Source: Balneola sp. (lineage in GTDB: Bacteria > Bacteroidota > Rhodothermia > Balneolales > Balneolaceae). From it: DNA of 64,000 nucleotides. Of this stretch, positions 731 through 11,636 are shown piece after piece (positions within the stretch are counted from its first letter, which is position 1; each line of letters starts with the position of its first letter). Position numbers and translations under genes: made by a program. The stretch is from contig NZMW01000001.1 in the NCBI GenBank assembly GCA_002694685.1, forward strand, positions 682,001 through 746,000, written 5' to 3'. The notes under the pieces were generated by a model, which was not told the DNA's origin, made no database searches, and worked only from the letters and a program-made list of their open reading frames with translations.

Positions 731-2215
731 ATGTTTAAATCGCGATTGCATATGTTTGAGTTTCGGAAAAAGGAAGCACCCCAGGTGTTTCTTTCGTCTC
801 AGCATGGAATGTACACCTACAGTGATTTAGAACGTTTTACTGCTTTTTTTAAAGATCTTGTTGAGAAAAAAGCCGATTCCATTAAATGGCCCGTTGCCTT
901 TATTTCGGAATCCAGCGATATGCTCATATTTGGAATCGCAGCCTGCTGGAGGCTTGGCATCCCCTTTATTCCCATCAACCCCAAGATTAAGAATGAGGAG
1001 CTCCAACATCATCTGGATGCTTTAAAACCTGTTCTGGTTTTTTGTGATACTGCCAACCGACAGCGTTTGGGTGATGACCACGTCATAAAGATGGATGAGA
1101 ATTTTTTCCTGAATGCTTTTACTTATGACATGCGAAACGTTGATCTGCCTGAACCTGAGTCCATCGACGATTCCCAAATTTTTGGATACTTCTTTACTTC
1201 AGGCACCACCAGCAAGCCTAAGATCGTGCCTCTGAAACGCCGCCAAATTAAGGCAGCAGCAAAAGCTTCAGCTCAGAACTTTAAGCCCGACCCCAACCAC
1301 TTCTGGCTGCTTTGCCTCCCGCTTAATCACATTGGCGGAATTTCGATTATCATACGGTCCGTTATTTATGACACCGCTATTTACAGGCTTGGAAATTTCC
1401 ATGAGGAAATGGTAAAAGAATTCCTGGGCGAGAATAAACGATTTCAGGCAGCTTCTTTAGTCCCCACTATGCTCAAGCGACTTTTAGACGATCCGCTTTT
1501 TAAAACGCACCGCGAGTTCAAATCAATTTTACTGGGGGGCGGACCTATCTCAGAAACGCTTCTCAAGAAGTCAGCTGAACGTGGTATCCCCATTGTTTCC
1601 AGTTATGGCATGACGGAAACCTGTGCCCAAATTATCGCTAATCCCCTCCTTGCTCCTTCCGGAATGTACACGCCGCTGAAAAGTGTGGGTAAGCCCTTCC
1701 CTCCTAACAAAATGCAAATTCGGGATGATGAGGGAAAGGTTCTGGGTAAAAATCAGTCGGGCGCACTTTGGCTCCACGGACCTCAGATTTTTGACGGCTA
1801 TTACGACAGCGATGAAAACGAAGGCCGTTTTGATGAGGACGGCTGGTTTAACACCGGTGACTTTGGCCATATAAATGGCTTTGGGCATTTATTCATAGAA
1901 TCCCGAAGGTCAGATTTAATTATTACCGGTGGTGAGAATGTGAACCCAACCGAAGTTGAGGAGGCCATGGCTAAGCTCTCCACTATAGAAGAAGCTGTGG
2001 TTATTGGCTTGCCTGATGAAGAATGGGGCCAAAAAGTAACCGCGGTAGTCACCCTCAAAAATGGCAAAACTCCTGACCTGCTTGAAATCCGGAATCAGCT
2101 CAAAGACTCCCTCACTGATTTTAAAATCCCCCGAGAGCTGAAGATCGTGAAAGACTTCCCAAAAACTAACACCGGCAAGGTCAAGCGCTGGGAACTGGTT
2201 AAGAGGTTTCAATAA
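731..2215 (+). CDS. menE: o-Succinylbenzoate-CoA ligase
   Basis: ANL-family adenylating enzyme that activates o-succinylbenzoate to its CoA thioester in menaquinone synthesis. The 494-residue length fits MenE. Motifs in order: phosphate-binding loop FTSGTTSKPK near residue 155, SYGMTETCAQI near 295, FNTGDFGHINGFGHLF near 375, SDLIITGGENVNPTEVEE near 395, and the C-terminal lysine motif KTNTGKVKRWEL that closes for thioester formation. Start ATG is 3 nt after the menC stop. Nothing abnormal was seen. The next gene lies about 300 bp downstream in a region of different composition. Confidence 0.9.
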   Translation: MFKSRLHMFEFRKKEAPQVFLSSQHGMYTYSDLERFTAFFKDLVEKKADSIKWPVAFISESSDMLIFGIAACWRLGIPFIPINPKIKNEELQHHLDALKPVLVFCDTANRQRLGDDHVIKMDENFFLNAFTYDMRNVDLPEPESIDDSQIFGYFFTSGTTSKPKIVPLKRRQIKAAAKASAQNFKPDPNHFWLLCLPLNHIGGISIIIRSVIYDTAIYRLGNFHEEMVKEFLGENKRFQAASLVPTMLKRLLDDPLFKTHREFKSILLGGGPISETLLKKSAERGIPIVSSYGMTETCAQIIANPLLAPSGMYTPLKSVGKPFPPNKMQIRDDEGKVLGKNQSGALWLHGPQIFDGYYDSDENEGRFDEDGWFNTGDFGHINGFGHLFIESRRSDLIITGGENVNPTEVEEAMAKLSTIEEAVVIGLPDEEWGQKVTAVVTLKNGKTPDLLEIRNQLKDSLTDFKIPRELKIVKDFPKTNTGKVKRWELVKRFQ

Positions 2216-2282
2216 CCAAACTCTACTTTTCTTCCAATCCCATATCTGTTACGCTCACCCATTCAGGAATCTCCGATTAGCT

Positions 2283-2313
2283 CTTGTTTTTATTAGTGAA
2301 GGTTCTATCTTGG
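2283..2313 (+). promoter_or_regulatory. Possible Bacteroidetes-type promoter ahead of the AT-rich cassette
   Basis: CTTG at 2283-2286, then exactly 19 bases, then TATCTTGG at 2306-2313. This is two mismatches from the Bacteroidetes consensus TTTG-N19-TAnnTTTG. It would leave a leader of about 200 nt before the DUF4238 gene. It could serve the cassette in the way an integron promoter does; this is inference. Confidence 0.3.
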
Positions 2314-2327
2314 CAAAACGTTAAGGA

Positions 2328-2489
2328 GTAATTCCTTACAAAAGAATGATTTTATCCGGCGACTTTATACGACTAAGCAGACGGATAACATCCAAGAAAC
2401 ACCGAATAATGAGTTTGAAGAGTGATCACCGGATCTTATCCACCGCGCCCTAAAAAACCCCTTGTTCGGATAATATTATGTTAGTGGGC
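2328..2489 (+). other. Left boundary of cassette; degenerate attC/attI-like sequence
   Basis: The intergenic stretch 2216-2510 holds no gene. It ends with GTTAGTGGGC at 2480-2489, the exact reverse complement of GCCCACTAAC at 4860-4869 on the other side of the two-gene cassette. Upstream, TTTATCCGG (about 2350-2358) can pair with TTCGGATAA (2465-2473), and a weak CCTTAC stands where an attC R'' box would be. The pairing is poor, so this may be a decayed attC, a primary attachment site or chance. Confidence 0.35.
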
Positions 2490-2510
2490 TTATATACAAA
2501 TCACTTTTAG

Positions 2511-3497
2511 ATGTCTAATAATGAAACTGTAAGGCAGCATTTTGTGCCTCGTGTTTACTTAAAGCATTTCGGTATTAAGCGTAAAAAGAATTATAAAATT
2601 AATGCTTTAAACAAAGAGGATCCCTCCAAAATTATTTTTCCAAGTGTAAATCAGGTTTGTGTAGTAAATGACTTATATACGCTTACTGGTGAAACTGAAG
2701 AAGAAAGACAAGCCATCGAAAACTTTTACTCTTATGAATTAGAAGCAAAATACGACGAAGTCTATAACATTTTGACCGATCCTACCAAAAAGGAAATTAC
2801 AGATGATGAAAATGACTTAATCATTAAGACAGTTATTACTTTACTCTATCGAAATTATAAATGGATTAGTGTTTTCAATAGCTTTCTTGAAAGGGTTTTT
2901 GAAGACGCAATACAACTTTGTCAAAGTGAAGGGAAAGATAGTTTTAATTTTCTTGGTAGAAACTTAACAATACATGAGAAAAATGCTTCTGACTTGACAA
3001 AAGAACATTTCCAAAGAAACCGAGAGTCACAAGTCCTTACACAATTAAAGGTTGCTTATCGTTTATATGAAGTAAGAAAAAAATCAGGGTTGTTCGTAAC
3101 TCAATTATCAGATCAAGATTCTAGTTTCTTAACAAGTGATAACCCCGTAATAATATCAAGTTCTCACAAAGAATTTGTTGTCCCTTTTGACCCCGAGAAT
3201 GTATTAATGCTTCCCCTTGATAAAGATTTTCTGCTTTATATAATGCCTCTATCAGATATTAGTAGAGTTAACTATATAGCGAGAGACACTAAAAAGGGGA
3301 CTCTTGCAAAAATGGAGGCTCTTTCATCAAACTTTCAACAACTACAAAATTGTGAACGGTTTATTTTCGGAAGAAAAAGAACAATTAATCAGCTTATCAA
3401 TCAAAAAGAAAACCTAGAAAAAGTTCCAGTATCTGATGATAAGACAAAGTCTTACAGCGAAGTCTTAGGACAATGCAAAAAGTATGGCATTATTTAA
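2511..3497 (+). CDS. DUF4238 family protein
   Basis: A 328-residue protein with the two family marks of DUF4238: N-terminal QHFVPRVYLKHF at residues 9-20, and LTSDNPVII around residues 207-215. It has no signal peptide or membrane segment and should be cytosolic. The biochemical function of DUF4238 is not known to me; members often sit in accessory and defence-type loci. It is the first of two genes (46 nt gap) in an AT-rich cassette bounded by attC-like sequences, and its base composition is clearly lower in G+C than menE or the genes after 5021, suggesting transfer. It is probably co-transcribed with, and may work with, the nuclease-like protein downstream. Confidence 0.75.
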   Translation: MSNNETVRQHFVPRVYLKHFGIKRKKNYKINALNKEDPSKIIFPSVNQVCVVNDLYTLTGETEEERQAIENFYSYELEAKYDEVYNILTDPTKKEITDDENDLIIKTVITLLYRNYKWISVFNSFLERVFEDAIQLCQSEGKDSFNFLGRNLTIHEKNASDLTKEHFQRNRESQVLTQLKVAYRLYEVRKKSGLFVTQLSDQDSSFLTSDNPVIISSSHKEFVVPFDPENVLMLPLDKDFLLYIMPLSDISRVNYIARDTKKGTLAKMEALSSNFQQLQNCERFIFGRKRTINQLINQKENLEKVPVSDDKTKSYSEVLGQCKKYGII

Positions 3498-3543
3498 CTA
3501 ATGCATTTTATTACCAAACATTATTCTATTAAAATTTTGTAGC

Positions 3544-4860
3544 ATGATTGAAACTATCGCTCAATTGCTAAATGAATTCAAAGAAGTTTCACTTGAAAAA
3601 ATCAATAGGGATGATTCGGACATTACTCATCGACCCACAATTGGGAATATCTTTGAAGGATTAACAAGTGAACTTTTAGAACAAGCTGTTTTTAAAGGTT
3701 TAAATCTTAAGGTTGTTCGTCAAAGCTTTATATACAATGAAAAAAATAACATAAGTGATGAAATCGACTGTATGTTGGTTTCAGGAGACGGAAAACATAT
3801 AAATTTTACCAACCAATACAAGTATCACATCTCCCAAGTCATAGCAGTAATTCAAGTAAAGAAAAAATTATACGCTAACGACATTGTTGATTCTCACCAC
3901 AACCTCCATTCCGTTTTTAGACTTAGACAAGATAGATTACTAAGTGATGGCGAAAAAGAAATGTTCTACGATGCATTCAGGCTATTGAATTCTAAACCAC
4001 CACCCAACTATGAGGACCTTCATAATTATTCAGCTAAGGAACAGCTTTCGTATTCAACATTATTGTTAGAGGCTGTCTTGCCGGCTAGAATAGTATTTGG
4101 GTATTTCGGTTATAAGAATGAGTATGAATTGAGAAATGGGTTTATCAATAAGGTTGAAAACCTTCTAAATGAACAAGTTAATGAAGGTAATTATTTATCT
4201 GGTTTTAGCCCGGCAACATTTCCTAATTTAATTATTTGTAATAACATAAGTATTGTTAAGAATAATGGAATGCCTTTTGGAATTCCATTTAGCGATAATA
4301 AATTTTTTTGGGAGGTTCTAACTTCTTCGACTGGTGACCCTATTAAAAACCTCCTTGAAATTATTTGGACTAAATTATCATATAAATTTGGGATCAGTTC
4401 TAAAATTTTTGGAGATGATTTCAGTATTGAACAAACTCATCCATTTTTAGCTTGCACTAATAAAAAAATAAAAGGACATCTCCACGGGTGGGATATTTAT
4501 TATCACGAATTATCAAAAAATCAGTTAGAGATACCTCTCACTTCTACACCATGGAAACCAGTTGAAATAAACCCAAATTTACAAGTTATACTGTTAATAT
4601 TGGGTAGCCAAGGTTCAATTGATATTGAAAATGACGAGGAGTTTTTAGATTACATTCAAAGTCATGATTTAATAAAAGAAGAAATCATAGATAAGTTGGT
4701 TTCTTCAAGATTGGTCTATATTGAGAATAATCAAATGAGATTATTAACAGATAATCTGAATGTTGTAAATACACCGGATGGGAAGATATTTGCCGGTGAC
4801 GATAAAAATGGAGAGCTACAACAATTCTTATTGAATTATCTAGAAAAGAAATACAAATAG
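3544..4860 (+). CDS. PD-(D/E)xK nuclease-like protein (DUF6602-like)
   Basis: A 438-residue soluble protein. The N-terminal third looks like a restriction-endonuclease fold: E38 in NIFEGLTSELL, D75 in SDEIDCMLV, and Q104-x-K106 in VIAVIQVKKKL, i.e. the E...D...QxK arrangement of a variant PD-(D/E)xK site. This N-terminal pattern resembles DUF6602 proteins. The remaining 300 residues are unassigned and contain no transmembrane helix. The stop codon TAG shares its last G with the attC-like right boundary, as in integron cassettes, where the ORF ends at attC. Codon usage is AT-rich like its partner. Likely a DNA-targeting effector, but the activity is inferred; the QxK variant may be inactive. 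Confidence 0.55.
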   Translation: MIETIAQLLNEFKEVSLEKINRDDSDITHRPTIGNIFEGLTSELLEQAVFKGLNLKVVRQSFIYNEKNNISDEIDCMLVSGDGKHINFTNQYKYHISQVIAVIQVKKKLYANDIVDSHHNLHSVFRLRQDRLLSDGEKEMFYDAFRLLNSKPPPNYEDLHNYSAKEQLSYSTLLLEAVLPARIVFGYFGYKNEYELRNGFINKVENLLNEQVNEGNYLSGFSPATFPNLIICNNISIVKNNGMPFGIPFSDNKFFWEVLTSSTGDPIKNLLEIIWTKLSYKFGISSKIFGDDFSIEQTHPFLACTNKKIKGHLHGWDIYYHELSKNQLEIPLTSTPWKPVEINPNLQVILLILGSQGSIDIENDEEFLDYIQSHDLIKEEIIDKLVSSRLVYIENNQMRLLTDNLNVVNTPDGKIFAGDDKNGELQQFLLNYLEKKYK

Positions 4861-4979
4861 CCCACTAACAATGCGTTTTAAATCGGACGCGGACGGGGTG
4901 CGATGGAAACTTGTTTGCAAGCAATTAATTTCGCTACTTCAACCAAATCATAATCCCCGCGCCGTTTAAAAGCAGGGGC
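4860..4979 (+). repeat. attC-like imperfect hairpin (integron recombination site)
   Basis: Begins GCCCACTAACAATGCGTT, matching the R''-spacer-L'' start of known attC sites (CTAACAATxCGTT). Left arm 4873-4892 pairs with right arm 4955-4973: GCGTTTTAAATCGGACGCGG against the reverse complement of CCCCGCGCCGTTTAAAAGC, leaving unpaired T and A on one arm only, which resembles the extrahelical bases that orient attC. The expected R' box (GTTRRRY) is replaced by CAGGGGC at 4973-4979, so the site looks damaged at its outer end. The loop between the arms is about 60 nt. Confidence 0.55.
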
Positions 4980-5020
4980 TTTACCCTCCACCAAACAGTA
5001 ACCCATCAAGCTACTCTATA

Positions 5021-8005
5021 ATGCTGCCAACTATATATCTGATTATTGCCGGATTTGTATCCCTTCTTAACAATAACCTTGCAACCACCGAGTCGGTTTA
5101 TACCCAAAGGCCAGTTGACTCCGAAGCCTATTATTTTACTCCTCAAAACTACGGTATTAAAGCAGACGGAATAATGGATATCTCAGATGCACTTCAAAAA
5201 GCCATTAATAAGGTGAAGGAGGAGAAAAATTACGGAATACTGTTTATACCGGAAGGTACTTACCTGATTAGTAAAACTATTTATGTGCCTAAAGCAGTGC
5301 GCCTTATCGGGTACGGAAAAAACCGTCCGGAAATCATTTTGGGGAAAAATGCCCCGGGATATCAGGCTGAGAACAGCACGGAAGAAAAGTATATGATCTG
5401 GTTCACCAGCAATATGGTTACCAGCGAAAATAAACCCAGCGATGCAAGTCCGGGTACTTTTTACAGTGCCATTTCAAATATCAATCTCAGGATTGGTGAA
5501 GGAAACCCAAACGCCGTTGCCTTGCGAACACATTATGCCCAGCATGGATTTGTAAGTCATTCCATAATAAATATAGGATCAGGTAAAGCGGGCATTTCTG
5601 ACGTGGGAAATGAAATGGAAAACGTTCGTTTATTGGGTGGAGAGTATGGAATCATATCCGGAGCAACTTCCCCGAGCTGGCCCATGATGATGGTGGATAC
5701 CTATTTTGAAGGTCAGCGCAAGGCAGCTATTCAGACAAATAATGCCGGCCTCACAATAGTGAATATGCATGTAAAGAATGTCCCCATAGGTCTGGAGATG
5801 CGCGAAGGCTCAACGGACCGTTTGTTTATTGAAAACAGCCTGTTTGAAAATGTGAGTGATGCCGCATTACTCATCAATGGGAAGTATAACAGCACGAATC
5901 AGATTAATGTGGTGAATATACATGCCCGAAATGTCCCCACATTTGCACGCTTCAGAAATACGGGTGAGGAAATAAAAGGGGAAAATAATACTTACACGGT
6001 AAGAGAATTTACCCATGGTCTTGTAATGGACGATTTAAATTCAGATTCAGAATTTGAAACGATAACCGATATCGTATCCTCGGACAGAGTCCCCACTAAA
6101 CTTCAGCGAACTATACCGCCCCTCCCTCCTATGGAAAACTGGGTAAATATAAAAGATTTGGGTGCGGTCGGAGATGGTAAAACGGATGATACTGAAGCTT
6201 TTAAAAAAGCCATTGAAAAGCACAAAGTCATTTATGTTCCACAAGGCTGGTATCATATTACCGAAACCATAAAGATGGCTCCCGGAACTAAATTGATAGG
6301 TTTACATCCGTGGGCAACTCAGTTCATTATAAAAGAAAGTGAACCTGCATTTAGCGGATTCGGAGCTCCTGTTCCTATGTTAGAATCGTACGAAGGTGGT
6401 GATGATATGTTGAACGGTATAGGCATTTCAACAGGTGGATATAATTATCGGGCTGTTGGATTAAAATGGATGGCTAACGAAAATTCACTGGTTAATGATG
6501 TGAAATTTGTGGGAGGTCATGGTACTATGGTTCCTCCCTCATCATCATCAGAAAGTTATCGGAGGTCTGAGCGGCGGATCAGTGCTCCCGGAAGTCCAGT
6601 TTATGAAGAAGGGATGGATGAAGCCTGGGACAATCAGTTCTGGAGTTTATGGATTACCAATAACGGTGGCGGAACTTTCAAAGATATCTGGACCGCCAAC
6701 AGCTACGCTGCAAGCGGAATGCTTGTGAGTAATACTTCTACTCCCGGACGAATATTTGCGATGTCTCTGGAGCATCACCTCCGCAACGAGGCTCGTTTTG
6801 ATCATGTCTCAAACTGGAAGATGTACGCTTTTCAATTTGAGGAAGAGTACAAAGAAGGCATTGATGCGATTTCAATTGAGATATCAAACTCACACGATCT
6901 GTTTTTTGGAAATCTGTGGTTGTATCGAACCATTCGGGTTGAAACTCCAAAACGGTTTGGCATGCGCCTCTGGAATTCCCGGGATATTGAGATCAGAAAC
7001 CTTCGTAATTACACACAGAAATTATGGGTGAATGAGTTTCCGGTATGGGATGTAAACAAGGAACTTGCCGCCTATCCGTGGCACTTTGCAAAGTTAACCA
7101 TAACAGGGAATGAAGAACCTAATCTGGATTCAGATTTCCGGATTGGAGAAGTAAATCGCCTGGCCTCAGGATTTGATTTTGCTCTGGGAATAACCTCAGA
7201 CAGCGAAGGAAATATTTATTTTTGTGAAACCAAAAAGAGACGAATCTACAAATGGTCGGCAGAAACAAATACGGTTTCGCTGCTTGCTGATTTTCCTTTC
7301 CAGCCTTTTGCTCTGGCTACCGATTCAGAAGATAATTTATTGGTAGTAGCCCGGTACGATCCCCAGCCTGGTTATTTGGTGAATGGGGAGCAGGAACAGG
7401 TGAAAACACTTCCGGATGATAACGAGGCCTACAGCAGCTGGGGAAACAGCGGCTGGGCTTCCTATACCTATTCAATCGACCCCGACGATCCGGACAATAC
7501 CTTTAGGATTATGCCGAGAATTGCCACAGCTGATATCAAAGAGTTCAGTAAAACCTATTACCCTTCCGGTCGGTGGCATTACACCTTTGATGACGCCGCA
7601 GTCTATTATCCTGACTCGGCTTTTGTCGCACCTGATGGAATGACTTATATACAAGAGGTATATGATATAGGCAGGACGGCGAGCTTAGCTGCTGCAGTTC
7701 CTGGGGAATCCATCTATGCCATGGACGAAATTTCCATGCGAACGGTAAAAATGGATGTGGGCGAAAAAGGCAAGCTATCGAATCTCAGAGAGGTTCTCCC
7801 CCGCGGACAGTACGACACAGCTATTGATAACGACGGAAACCTGTATGTACTGGACGGACAGATTTTTGTGTACGACAAGGATATGAATGAAATCAACCGA
7901 ATCAATCTTACCGAACGTCCTTTATCAATTACTTTTGGCGGCAAAGATGGAAATACTCTGTTTATTACAACGGCGAATTCTCTGTTTGGAATGAGGGTAA
8001 AGTAG
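5021..8005 (+). CDS. Secreted tandem pectate-lyase-fold (beta-helix) protein with C-terminal propeller
   Basis: A 994-residue exported protein with an N-terminal hydrophobic signal (residues 1-20). Two Pectate_lyase_3-type beta-helix domains follow: the first starts with YGIKADGIMDISDALQKAI near residue 47, the second with LGAVGDGKTDDTEAFKKAI near residue 378. Each has the IPEGTYLI or VPQGWYHI turn that marks this family. From about residue 716 an SMP-30/NHL-like beta-propeller appears (ALGITSDSEGNIYFCET, LATDSEDNLLVV). Tandem helices of this sort occur in GH55 exo-beta-1,3-glucanases, so a polysaccharide substrate is plausible, but I could not identify a catalytic acid. It starts 41 nt after the attC-like element, without an obvious ribosome-binding site. 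Confidence 0.75.
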   Translation: MLPTIYLIIAGFVSLLNNNLATTESVYTQRPVDSEAYYFTPQNYGIKADGIMDISDALQKAINKVKEEKNYGILFIPEGTYLISKTIYVPKAVRLIGYGKNRPEIILGKNAPGYQAENSTEEKYMIWFTSNMVTSENKPSDASPGTFYSAISNINLRIGEGNPNAVALRTHYAQHGFVSHSIINIGSGKAGISDVGNEMENVRLLGGEYGIISGATSPSWPMMMVDTYFEGQRKAAIQTNNAGLTIVNMHVKNVPIGLEMREGSTDRLFIENSLFENVSDAALLINGKYNSTNQINVVNIHARNVPTFARFRNTGEEIKGENNTYTVREFTHGLVMDDLNSDSEFETITDIVSSDRVPTKLQRTIPPLPPMENWVNIKDLGAVGDGKTDDTEAFKKAIEKHKVIYVPQGWYHITETIKMAPGTKLIGLHPWATQFIIKESEPAFSGFGAPVPMLESYEGGDDMLNGIGISTGGYNYRAVGLKWMANENSLVNDVKFVGGHGTMVPPSSSSESYRRSERRISAPGSPVYEEGMDEAWDNQFWSLWITNNGGGTFKDIWTANSYAASGMLVSNTSTPGRIFAMSLEHHLRNEARFDHVSNWKMYAFQFEEEYKEGIDAISIEISNSHDLFFGNLWLYRTIRVETPKRFGMRLWNSRDIEIRNLRNYTQKLWVNEFPVWDVNKELAAYPWHFAKLTITGNEEPNLDSDFRIGEVNRLASGFDFALGITSDSEGNIYFCETKKRRIYKWSAETNTVSLLADFPFQPFALATDSEDNLLVVARYDPQPGYLVNGEQEQVKTLPDDNEAYSSWGNSGWASYTYSIDPDDPDNTFRIMPRIATADIKEFSKTYYPSGRWHYTFDDAAVYYPDSAFVAPDGMTYIQEVYDIGRTASLAAAVPGESIYAMDEISMRTVKMDVGEKGKLSNLREVLPRGQYDTAIDNDGNLYVLDGQIFVYDKDMNEINRINLTERPLSITFGGKDGNTLFITTANSLFGMRVK

Positions 8006-8084
8006 AGGGTAATAGAGCATTATGATCATAACTTTTACAGGATTGTTTATAATAAAATATCATGGTTAATTAAATTTAAATGTT

Positions 8085-8117
8085 CCCGGCCATTGTGAAC
8101 CGGGTCTTTATTTTTTT
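8085..8117 (+). terminator. Probable intrinsic terminator after the beta-helix gene
   Basis: CCCGG (8085-8089) pairs with CCGGG (8100-8104) around a 10-nt loop, followed by TCTTTATTTTTTT. The stem is short, and an alternative GTTC/GAAC pairing competes with it. Confidence 0.45.
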
Positions 8118-8155
8118 ACAACTAAAATATCTTCACAAAGTAATAGTGCCTTTTT

Positions 8156-8572
8156 ATGGAATTATTCGGTTGGCTCTTAGAACGTCATAATCCCGGTCCA
8201 ACCGGCTCGGTTGAGACACATTATAACAGCAGAAACCGAACTCATTTATCTATTATCACTGGAGGTATGGCGGGATTAATTGCGGTAATACTCCCCTTCT
8301 ACTTCATGGCAGAGAACAACGGCTTTAGCTGGAGTACTTTTGGTATCTATTCCGTGCTTGTTATCATTTACTTATTCGCATCCTACCGATTAAATCCTGT
8401 CCCTGAAACCCAAAACATTGGCATCTTTGGTTTTATAAATAATCCCTTTAAATACACCGACGACATCAATCGATTTCTAGTCTTTTTTAAGGTGTTTCTC
8501 TACCCAGGACGTCTTATTGGAATCGGCCTTGTCGATTTTTGGTCATTAATCAATGCTGGCGCAAAGCCTTGA
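8156..8572 (+). CDS. Small integral membrane protein of unknown function
   Basis: A 138-residue protein that I do not recognise. Hydrophobic segments lie near residues 37-58 (IITGGMAGLIAVILPFYF) and 65-83 (FGIYSVLVIIYLFASY), and a weaker one near 112-130 (FKVFLYPGRLIGIGLVDFW). The N-terminal 35 residues are polar and contain several Asn, His and Arg. It stands alone with 150-nt non-coding gaps on both sides and no clear operon partner. Codon use resembles neighbouring core genes, so it is likely a real gene rather than a chance frame. Confidence 0.65.
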   Translation: MELFGWLLERHNPGPTGSVETHYNSRNRTHLSIITGGMAGLIAVILPFYFMAENNGFSWSTFGIYSVLVIIYLFASYRLNPVPETQNIGIFGFINNPFKYTDDINRFLVFFKVFLYPGRLIGIGLVDFWSLINAGAKP

Positions 8573-8731
8573 TCAAGTACTAAATTCAGCCAAACAAGTG
8601 ATTGGTTTCTTCAAGTCTTAATTGATTGCTACCGCAATTCAATGCTTTGCAAAATAGTGTAGCAACTACACTTAATTTTCCTTACAATTTAATTTCCAAC
8701 CACCAATTGCTTAATAATGAATGGAGCTGAT

Positions 8732-9694
8732 ATGAATCTGATCAAAACATCCACCTTTTTATCTTTGATATTTTTTGCACTCTCTTCACTATTAATCTCA
8801 ACATCAGCCTTAGCTCAGGACGGGACCATCTACCCGCTTGAAACACCTGATGAACCGAATGCCATTCTCCTTAAAACTGGCGGTGTAGAGAACCAACCCG
8901 CACCAGAAAGTTGGTTCCGACAGTGGGGAGATCCTATGGCACGAAATATTTCAACAGCAACGCTTACCCCCTTTCTTCCCGATCCTGATAAAGCAAATGG
9001 TACAGCTGTAATTGTTGCTCCAGGTGGTGGTTTCATGTGGTTATCGATGGGGAATGAAGGTTGGGAAGTTGCCGAGGCCCTTGCAGAACAGGGAATTGCG
9101 GCCTTTGTGCTTAAATATCGACTCCGCCCCACTGTAGAATCTCTTGATGAATTTGCTTCCTGGATGAATGGTCCACGCCCTGCTCCTTCAGAAGCTTCTG
9201 AAGAAACTGAAAATACTGAAGAGGAACTGCCCAGCCGCCCACAATGGGATTTATCTAATCAATTAGAAGATGCTGAAGCAGCCTATGCCATGATTGTGGA
9301 TCGCGCCGATGAATGGGGTGTAGATACTGACCGAATTGGTATGATTGGCTTTTCGGCGGGAGCTGGCCTAACGATGCATTCAACGCTTAATTCCAAGTCC
9401 ATGAAACTTGCTTTTATTGGTCCGATTTATGGTGGCATGGGTCCGGTTGAAGTGCCAAAAAATGCGCCACCCATGTTCAACGTAATTGCTACCGACGACT
9501 TTCTTTATAACGGGCAAAACGGCGTGATTGAATCCTGGTATAATGCGGGCGTACCGGTTGAATTTCATCTTTATCAGAATGGTGGTCACGGTTTTGGTCT
9601 CGGTAATCCAGATCGCACAAGCAATCGTTGGTTTGATGCTTTTATCTACTGGCTGGATGTGAATGATTTTCTCGCTTATAATTCGGGAAATTAA
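8732..9694 (+). CDS. Secreted alpha/beta-hydrolase (esterase, BD-FAE/acetyl-xylan-esterase-like)
   Basis: An exported hydrolase of about 320 residues. The ATG at 8732 is chosen over 8717 because GGAG lies 5 nt upstream of it and because it starts directly with the signal peptide MNLIKTSTFLSLIFFALSSL. The mature part has an oxyanion-type loop VIVAPGGGFMW, nucleophile elbow GMIGFSAGAG with Ser at bases 9353-9355, an Asp in VIATDDFLY, and the His in YQNGGHGFGLG. This order fits small carbohydrate esterases and BD-FAE-type hydrolases. An acidic insert (EASEETENTEEELPS) precedes the nucleophile. The carbohydrate link is supported only loosely by the beta-helix protein two genes upstream. Confidence 0.8.
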   Translation: MNLIKTSTFLSLIFFALSSLLISTSALAQDGTIYPLETPDEPNAILLKTGGVENQPAPESWFRQWGDPMARNISTATLTPFLPDPDKANGTAVIVAPGGGFMWLSMGNEGWEVAEALAEQGIAAFVLKYRLRPTVESLDEFASWMNGPRPAPSEASEETENTEEELPSRPQWDLSNQLEDAEAAYAMIVDRADEWGVDTDRIGMIGFSAGAGLTMHSTLNSKSMKLAFIGPIYGGMGPVEVPKNAPPMFNVIATDDFLYNGQNGVIESWYNAGVPVEFHLYQNGGHGFGLGNPDRTSNRWFDAFIYWLDVNDFLAYNSGN

Positions 9695-9708
9695 AATCGG
9701 TTTGATGT

Positions 9709-9729
9709 AAAAGCTTTTGTAGCTTTTTT
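9709..9729 (+). terminator. Weak terminator-like hairpin after the esterase gene
   Basis: AAAAGC (9709-9714) and GCTTTT (9722-9727) form a 6-bp stem running into a T-rich end. The A+T-rich stem makes this a weak call. Confidence 0.3.
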
Positions 9730-9839
9730 AAACTCCTCAATGGTTATTAGCTTGTATCCAGAGACAATAAGTTTTGGTTTTAGATTTAAAAGTCTGGACT
9801 CAACTTCCTCTTGATTGCTTGTAGCTTAATTCTATATCT

Positions 9840-10169
9840 ATGAGATCTTCACTGATATTGTCAGTTTTATGTTTAGCGGCCTCTTTTCTATTCCTCCTAT
9901 CGGGTTGTAAAACCCCCGCTGATACTACAGATAAGCAAAAGTTATACTCCGTTGATAATCTAAGCTGTAAGAAAGGTTTTGATAGAGGTCAACAACCTAT
10001 ATTCGTAGTTAATGGTAGAATCGTGACTTTACAATTCGTCGAAGAAAAGCTATATCCCGAAAATGTTAAGACCATCGAAGTAGAAAGATGTAATCAAGAG
10101 TTGCTTAGAGAATGGGGACCGGGTGCTTCTGTTGGCGTTGCATTTGTAGAAACTATAGAGAAGTTTTGA
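9840..10169 (+). CDS. Small lipoprotein resembling a TonB-receptor plug fragment
   Basis: A 109-residue protein with a hydrophobic start and lipobox LLSGC (Cys at residue 23), so probably an outer-membrane or periplasmic lipoprotein. The mature part reads PIFVVNGRIV, PENVKTIEVER and LREWGPGASVGVAFVET. This is the order and spacing of the plug-domain core of SusC-type TonB-dependent receptors (PLYVVDG...DIESIEVLK...YG.RGANGVI.I.T). There is no barrel, so it is a free-standing plug-like module. Three cysteines besides the lipobox (in DNLSCKK and VERCNQ, plus the lipobox Cys itself) make disulfide formation possible. Function unknown. Confidence 0.65.
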   Translation: MRSSLILSVLCLAASFLFLLSGCKTPADTTDKQKLYSVDNLSCKKGFDRGQQPIFVVNGRIVTLQFVEEKLYPENVKTIEVERCNQELLREWGPGASVGVAFVETIEKF

Positions 10170-10277
10170 GAACCCACCTACCTCATCGGTTCTATCAGTT
10201 TTAAGTATAAAAATTCAGCCTATAAAAGTCTGAAGCTTTGGTTAGATTTGGACCGAGTTAATTAATCAACATCAGCC

Positions 10278-11636
10278 ATGTCTAAAAACAGCGACACTCT
10301 TACTTCCCTTAAAAATTCTGATGCCCAGAAAGTTAAACTGGCTATTACAGATATAGATGGAATTCTCCGTGGTAAGCTGATCTCTAAAGATAAATTTCTA
10401 AAAGCTACAGAGGACAAACTCGGATTCTGTAATGTGGTTTTTGGTTGGGACATGAATGATGCGGTGTACGACAACTCAGAAGTCACCGGCTGGCACACCG
10501 GCTTCCCCGACTCCATGGCAACCATTGATTTAAGCTCACAACGGCATATTCCCTGGAATAACGATCTTCCATTTTTTCTGGGTGATTTCTCGGAATCAGA
10601 TGACTTAAAGGAAGTCTGCCCACGAAGCCTTTTGAGAAGAATTACTTCTCAAGCAGAAGACATGGGATTCAAACCCAAATTCTCTAACGAATTTGAGTGG
10701 TTCAATTTCAAAGAAACACCCCAATCATTGAAAGAGAAAGGCGGAGTTAATCCCACTCCCCTGACTCCCGGCATGTTTGGGTATTCTATATTGAGGTCAT
10801 CTCAGCATCACGAATACTTTGATGAGCTTTTTGATCTGCTCACACAATTTGGCGTCCATATTGAGGGGCTACATACTGAAACCGGAGATGGAGTTTACGA
10901 AGCCTGCATTGCCTATACGGATATCATGGATGCCGCAGATCAGGCAGTGCTTTTTAAATCAGGCGTTAAAGAAATTGCGTACAGGCATGAAATTATTGCC
11001 AGCTTCATGGCAAAATGGAATACCAACCTTCCGGGCTGCAGTGGACATATTCACCAGAGTCTTTGGGATAAAAAGTCAGAAAAGAATCTATTTTATGGTG
11101 AGCAGGGAAATCATAAAATGAGTGAACTGTTAGAACATTACATCGCCGGTCAGCTTCACTGCCTTCCGCATATCCTTCCGATGTATGCACCAACCGTAAA
11201 TAGTTATAAACGATTGGTAGAAGGTTCCTGGGCGGCAACCTCAGCGAGCTGGGGCGTCGAAAACCGGACTACAGCTCTTCGTGTTATCAATCATGCAGAG
11301 GATTCCATGAGGCTGGAAACACGAGTACCCGGTGCTGATGCGAATCCATATCTATCAATGGCGGCAAGTTTGGCTTCTGGGTTGTACGGAATCAAACATA
11401 AGCTTTCGCTGGATATCGAGCCGACTCAGGGCAATGAATACGAGAATCAATCAACCCGAAAACTTCCGAAAACACTGGCCGATGCAACTCAACAAATGAA
11501 AGCTTCTGATCTATCAAAAGAGTTATTCGGAGAGGGATTCACAGATCATTTTATAAAGACAAGAGAGTGGGAATGGAGACAGTTCGCCCAAAAAGTGACG
11601 GACTGGGAATTAAAACGCTACTTTGAAATCATCTAA
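10278..11636 (+). CDS. Glutamine-synthetase-family ligase
   Basis: A 452-residue member of the GSI fold, which couples ATP to gamma-glutamyl amide formation. Visible marks: the N-terminal beta-Grasp start VKLAITDIDGILRGKLI, the ATP-site motif GCSGHIHQSLWD near residue 253, WAATSASWGVENRTTALRV near 315, and ETRVPGADANPYLSMAAS near 350. The opening LAITDIDGILRGK resembles gamma-glutamylpolyamine synthetases and GlnT-like paralogues more than housekeeping GlnA; the genuine acceptor amine is unknown. It is the first gene of a three-gene operon (12 nt to the next) with a kinase-like and a HAD-like protein, which argues for a catabolic or modification role rather than bulk ammonia assimilation. Confidence 0.82.
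   Translation: MSKNSDTLTSLKNSDAQKVKLAITDIDGILRGKLISKDKFLKATEDKLGFCNVVFGWDMNDAVYDNSEVTGWHTGFPDSMATIDLSSQRHIPWNNDLPFFLGDFSESDDLKEVCPRSLLRRITSQAEDMGFKPKFSNEFEWFNFKETPQSLKEKGGVNPTPLTPGMFGYSILRSSQHHEYFDELFDLLTQFGVHIEGLHTETGDGVYEACIAYTDIMDAADQAVLFKSGVKEIAYRHEIIASFMAKWNTNLPGCSGHIHQSLWDKKSEKNLFYGEQGNHKMSELLEHYIAGQLHCLPHILPMYAPTVNSYKRLVEGSWAATSASWGVENRTTALRVINHAEDSMRLETRVPGADANPYLSMAASLASGLYGIKHKLSLDIEPTQGNEYENQSTRKLPKTLADATQQMKASDLSKELFGEGFTDHFIKTREWEWRQFAQKVTDWELKRYFEII

Follow-up and report, generated by a model that had tools for sequence, protein, structure and literature searches.

A relict chromosomal integron in Balneola sp. probably carries two separately acting phage-defense-like genes in its first cassette

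Results

The stretch of DNA analyzed here (the window) comprises 64,000 nucleotides of contig NZMW01000001.1 of Balneola sp. (assembly GCA_002694685.1, positions 682,001 to 746,000), and all features described below lie on its + strand. The left flank is formed by a menE-like acyl-CoA/AMP ligase gene (731..2215), recognized by its Pfam AMP-binding match and by synteny. It is followed by an integron attachment site, attI (2263..2480), without an integrase gene, by an integron gene cassette of 2.5 kb that spans 2481-4980, and by the attC site belonging to this cassette (4860..4986). The right flank (4990..10277) holds four other ORFs, which code for a pectate-lyase-like protein, a protein of 138 aa, an alpha/beta hydrolase and a protein of 109 aa. 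A glutamine-synthetase-like (glnA-like) gene (10278..11636), named from its sequence, marks the right edge of the integron site. Only two ORFs of at least 60 aa are present in the cassette, located on the same strand and 46 bp apart. The first codes for a DUF4238 protein of 328 aa (P0001; 2511..3497) and the second for a DUF6602 protein of 438 aa (P0002; 3544..4860); neither is a cyclase such as the CD-NTase of CBASS. With a G+C content of 31.5%, the region 2511-4860 is the lowest 2.35-kb stretch in the window (mean 41.4, sd 2.1).

The right end of the cassette is an attC site, and the check with attC models proposed in the initial annotation of this locus gave a clear answer: a leave-one-out attC profile (nhmmer, window copy excluded) has its sole match in the window at about 4860-4989 (E = 1.9e-37). 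A blastn search of 4855-4990 against the own genome returned 23 places, namely the window site and 22 others, with 73-100% identity on seven contigs and several of them in arrays. Seventeen attC sites align over ~130 bases and keep a two-stem structure with 91.7% standard pairs, compared to 33-43% when the partner is slid, a figure that is tilted in favor of the two-stem model because the structure was derived from these same sequences. The layout itself was supplied by hand from the known attC form, the RNAalifold structure being uninformative. When the window attC was folded alone as single-stranded DNA, its advantage over shuffled sequences was only slight (z -1.5 and -1.6). Its elements are an R'' arm (4860-4869, GCCCACTAAC), a long stem, an AT-rich loop and a degenerate R' core (4977..4984), in which TTTA replaces the consensus GTTA according to the alignment and the pair list. 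The core thus reads CTTTA instead of CGTTA, the crossover base G at 4980 being changed to T (TTT rather than GTT at 4980-4982), and excision of the cassette is probably impaired. Since the G is also missing in two other sites of this genome, we take this change as decay of the site and not as a lack of cassette descent. Further attC sites are scattered over the genome (C1:80771, C1:427731, C4:809144, and contigs C3, C4, C9, C10, C11 and C15), some of them single or paired and far from the only complete intI.

At the left end, GTTAGTGGGC (2480-2489) is the exact reverse complement of GCCCACTAAC at 4860-4869, with a pairing that extends to 11 bases. Taken alone, such a pair is at chance level, as exact inverted 10-mer pairs with a spacing of 1.5-4 kb occur 290 times in the window; it becomes meaningful through its position, the first copy being located at the attI core and the second forming the R'' arm of the attC. 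The left end of the cassette, G/TTAGTGGGC (2480..2489; the slash marks the cut), and the R'' arm of its attC are complementary in sequence. This hallmark recurs on contig C9 of this genome, in an array of nine sites, where all cassettes (8/8) start with a sequence complementary to their own R'' arm over 9-10 of 10 bases. The initial annotation had described a two-gene unit of lower G+C than its flanks, bracketed by the 10-mer and its complement and with a second ORF ending at the first base of an attC-like element. Both sequences and both ORFs were found in place, the composition agrees, and the stop codon of the second ORF ends on the first attC base (4860). The proposed bounds of 2480-4979 were corrected to those given above, and of the two ends only the right one matches the attC profile, the left one being attI.

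The attI profile was built from seven intI-upstream or attI-like regions of congeners and of this genome. It matches the window at 2280-2494 only (E = 8.6e-22), and the alignment stops at the shared GTTA core (ATATTATG/TTA, crossover between 2480 and 2481), exactly at the cassette junction. The match ends at ATG/TTA, in agreement with a left boundary formed by an attI or attC cut at G/TT. An IntI match was not found within the window, and attI accordingly has no intI beside it as in a complete integron. The genome encodes one complete intI (C1:314-1255), ~680 kb away and of another type: it shares 96% identity with the G001 and G007 types and only 63-64% with the intI of G003, G005 and G006 (a comparison that leaves out G002 and G014), and the window attI is closest to the G003/G005/G006 integron group. 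This remoteness of the integrase would suit an attG-type insertion into the chromosome outside any integron, the likeness to attI being accidental, yet the strength of the profile match, the exact coincidence of the shared core with the junction and the direct adjacency of menE and intI in three congeners led us to reject this highly improbable explanation. The locus belongs to a chromosomal integron that has lost its integrase gene, and the cassette takes the first position at the attachment site. Within the array of another genome (G006, contig C4, locus L068), a second attI-like sequence without intI was observed at about 2009-2142. It is followed by one short cassette whose R'' arm matches the cassette start in 9/10 bases (attC at 1549-1677), a layout like that of the window.

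The history of the locus can be followed in relatives. In G001, G005 and G007, menE is immediately followed by intI, the two genes being convergent, and in G005 attI, five attC sites and the orthologue of the glnA-like gene (10278 in the window) come next. Given the gene order here versus these congeners, the simplest explanation is that intI was deleted from between menE and attI. In G003, the glnA-like orthologue comes ~130 bp after menE with nothing between, an empty site of the kind that the initial annotation had proposed to look for. Its view of the unit as an acquired insert was likewise borne out, the DUF4238 and DUF6602 cassette proteins being found in no other genus or family member searched. 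The ORFs of the right flank are absent from the site in relatives, with the pectate-lyase-like protein in none of the 27 relatives, and no attC was found in these 5.3 kb (4990-10277). The mutated crossover base and the lack of intI in cis make it probable that the cassette is frozen in first position; the other integrase of the genome could in principle act on it in trans. The menE proteins of G001, G007 and G005 are 89-90% identical to that of the window, and integrons with two IntI types (~63% identical) occupy the same place in G001 and G007 versus G005. This distribution suggests that integrons replaced one another at the menE site.

The first cassette gene matches DUF4238 (PF14022) with 107 bits against a cut-off of 27, covering profile positions 1-280 of 281 (E = 1.3e-30). 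One DUF4238 protein, encoded in a P2-like phage hotspot, by itself gave strong T7 resistance in E. coli (Rousset et al., 2022; PMC9122126), and DUF4238 is listed as a defense system in later surveys. The window protein shares PF14022 over nearly the full profile with this anti-T7 system, but its gene is located in an integron cassette beside a putative nuclease gene, whereas the tested gene stood alone. It is a relative of the tested protein at the family level only, and from this kinship an anti-phage activity may be expected. PADLOC gave no match to the protein, and an AF2 model built from two sequences (pLDDT 41.5) was not interpreted. Among viral contigs one DUF4238 relative was found, in an apparently P2-like phage, adjoining SIR2-like and DUF262-like genes (named from their sequences); a plasmid relative adjoins AIPR, PD-(D/E)XK and Z1 genes. 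Phage records contained no homologue of either cassette protein, and searches of Rfam, PHROGs and BFVD structures returned nothing useful.

The second gene product matches DUF6602 (PF20247, E = 1.3e-15). An AF2 model based on an alignment of 55 sequences reached a pLDDT of 92.2 and a pTM of 0.90. In a Foldseek search of this model against the PDB, all 14 matches with E < 0.001 are NucC (E from 2e-7 to 5e-6, the best being 2.0e-7; TM by target mostly 0.5-0.63), and the family profile run against PDB sequences found Vibrio metoecus NucC (1e-9, residues 5-126). NucC is an effector of CBASS and type III CRISPR (PDB 6p7p, 6q1h, 6uxf, 7zgv), and the predicted likeness comprises the fold of the first ~290 residues and a catalytic set in register: E39, D73, E104 and K106 of NucC correspond to E38, D75, Q104 and K106 of the window protein. 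E38, D75 and K106 are invariant in 55/55 homologues. Of the 55 members, 30 have E and 25 have Q at position 104, and the Q of the window protein, where the studied NucC has E, could lower or change the activity. Further differences are the length (438 versus ~240 aa), with an added C-terminal part of which ~100 residues weakly resemble winged helices by Foldseek, and apparently the position of NucC R53, which does not seem to be kept. R53 and Y81 are presumably the cA3-binding residues of NucC; in DUF6602 the former column is mostly G and the latter is G in 52 of 55 members, at a place where the alignment is uncertain. No cyclase gene accompanies the protein in the cassette. With PADLOC, DUF6602 gave generic PD-(D/E)xK and weak NucC matches only. 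The protein, previously described as PD-(D/E)xK-like, is thus predicted to have the NucC fold with catalytic residues conserved at E38, D75 and K106, and on balance we lean toward a NucC-like DNase activity.

In other genomes, 67 DUF6602 loci were examined (60 genome and 7 viral-contig loci). The 133 nearest neighbors match 337 PADLOC models, against 2 for a control set of 125 ORFs from ordinary menE loci of other genomes, these figures counting models and not independent loci. In Rhodobacterales (L076), DUF6602 is located directly downstream of SIR2-APAZ and short pAgo; pAgo is also present in L131, and L128, L129 and L142 have the same gene layout as L076. The DUF6602 gene is common to these loci and to the window cassette, which differs from them by having no pAgo. 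It is possible that DUF6602 is an accessory effector of Rhodobacterales short-pAgo systems. Other checked neighbors are GajAB (L075), an AriA-like gene (L090), a type III methyltransferase (L140), PDC-S49 (L102) and a IIG enzyme (L127), and the conjugative-transposon genes TraO and TraQ recur. In L127, which belongs to a Deltaproteobacteria MAG, an attC-like site lies one gene downstream of DUF6602 (E = 3.1e-6, filters off) and a weaker candidate right after the DUF6602 gene (E = 0.89), the sites being at 3488-3553 and 2898-3034; this hints at a second DUF6602 integron cassette.

The arrangement of both genes on one strand of one cassette is compatible with joint action, that is, with one new two-component defense system in which DUF4238 would act as sensor or restraint and the NucC-like DUF6602 as effector, in obligate cooperation. 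Integrons do hold small systems, those of more than two genes being absent (PMC12409362). Such cooperation is nevertheless rather unlikely, as the DUF4238 protein works alone against T7 (PMC9122126), DUF4238 homologues have other neighbors, and neither sequence nor profile searches placed a DUF4238 gene near DUF6602 (0/67 loci). The same observations speak against the role of sensor, regulator or antitoxin that the initial annotation had assigned to DUF4238, and the recurring adjacency of DUF4238 and nuclease genes for which it had proposed a search does not exist in these loci. Toxin-antitoxin cassettes are abundant in sedentary integrons, and PhdYeFM, ParE and PemK matches occur among the cassette ORFs of this genome. 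A toxin-antitoxin pair that stabilizes the cassette, in which the nuclease would be the toxin and DUF4238 the antitoxin, is nonetheless very unlikely here: both proteins are large, a DUF4238 protein defends alone, and DUF6602 homologues occur without DUF4238 and without any recurrent partner gene instead of in a tight pair. Most likely, the two cassette proteins act independently.

Discussion

In this study, we propose that the first cassette of a relict, integrase-less integron codes for two phage-defense-like proteins, which most likely act separately, and we consider this reading probable. The cassette is probably a small phage-defense stock since one of its genes is related to a proven anti-phage gene and the other codes for a NucC-like enzyme; integrons serve as defense stores (PMC12409362), and an anti-phage function of at least one of its genes appears quite probable. 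The suggestion of an integron cassette in the initial annotation is confirmed by the attC, the attI and the complementarity of the cassette ends. As for the proposed undescribed defense module, there is a good case for phage defense but not for a single two-component system, and 'undescribed' applies to DUF6602, for which no paper was found in the literature library searched, but not to DUF4238 with its published anti-T7 member.

The proposed course of events would begin with capture of the cassette at attI, between menE and the glutamine-synthetase-like gene, and intI between menE and attI would later have been deleted. In first position, the cassette would be expressed from the attI side. 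DUF4238 alone would then block certain phages, and DUF6602 would stay inactive until an infection-linked trigger, perceived either through the C-terminal part of the protein or by another defense system that accompanies it. Once triggered, DUF6602 would cut DNA, its presumed substrate, and thereby abort the infection.

A different reading takes the cassette as a decaying relic without present function, the frames being open merely because they are young. The lost intI and the mutated attC core fit this idea, as does a promoter scan in which promoter-like sites were no commoner than in shuffles. Both frames, however, are full length, and DUF6602 keeps all catalytic residues that are invariant in its family. 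In addition, the best expression within an integron is expected for cassettes in first position (PMC12409362). We therefore hold a functionless relic to be unlikely and retain the interpretation of a defense cassette.

Compared to the defense cassettes in the sedentary chromosomal integrons of V. cholerae and V. parahaemolyticus (PMC12409362), the cassette described here is likewise attC-bounded, contains defense-type genes and is located in a chromosomal integron. It differs by belonging to another phylum (Balneolota according to the initial annotation), by two long ORFs in one 2.5-kb cassette, by the loss of the integrase and by standing alone at attI. With CALIN elements or single attC sites without integrase, the locus shares an attC without intI in cis; in contrast to these, it keeps a recognizable attI, and its single attC is below the usual CALIN count.

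The most interesting part of this analysis is the DUF6602 family. Tentatively, and with somewhat less than even confidence, we suggest that its members may be widespread immune nucleases of the NucC fold that operate without a cyclase, are activated through their C-terminal winged-helix-like part or by systems of the host (short pAgo, Gabija or PARIS, for example), and travel between genomes as add-on effectors aboard integrons and conjugative elements.

In summary, defense cassettes in chromosomal integrons would be extended beyond Vibrio to another phylum, Balneolota in the assignment cited above. The menE site offers a natural series at one chromosomal place within a genus, ranging from an empty site to a full and a relict integron. 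A nearly undocumented family of predicted nucleases is flagged as NucC-like; its genes occur without a cyclase, in the vicinity of short-pAgo, Gabija, PARIS-like and restriction-modification genes. If this reading is true, the use of NucC-type DNA degradation would reach beyond CBASS and type III CRISPR.
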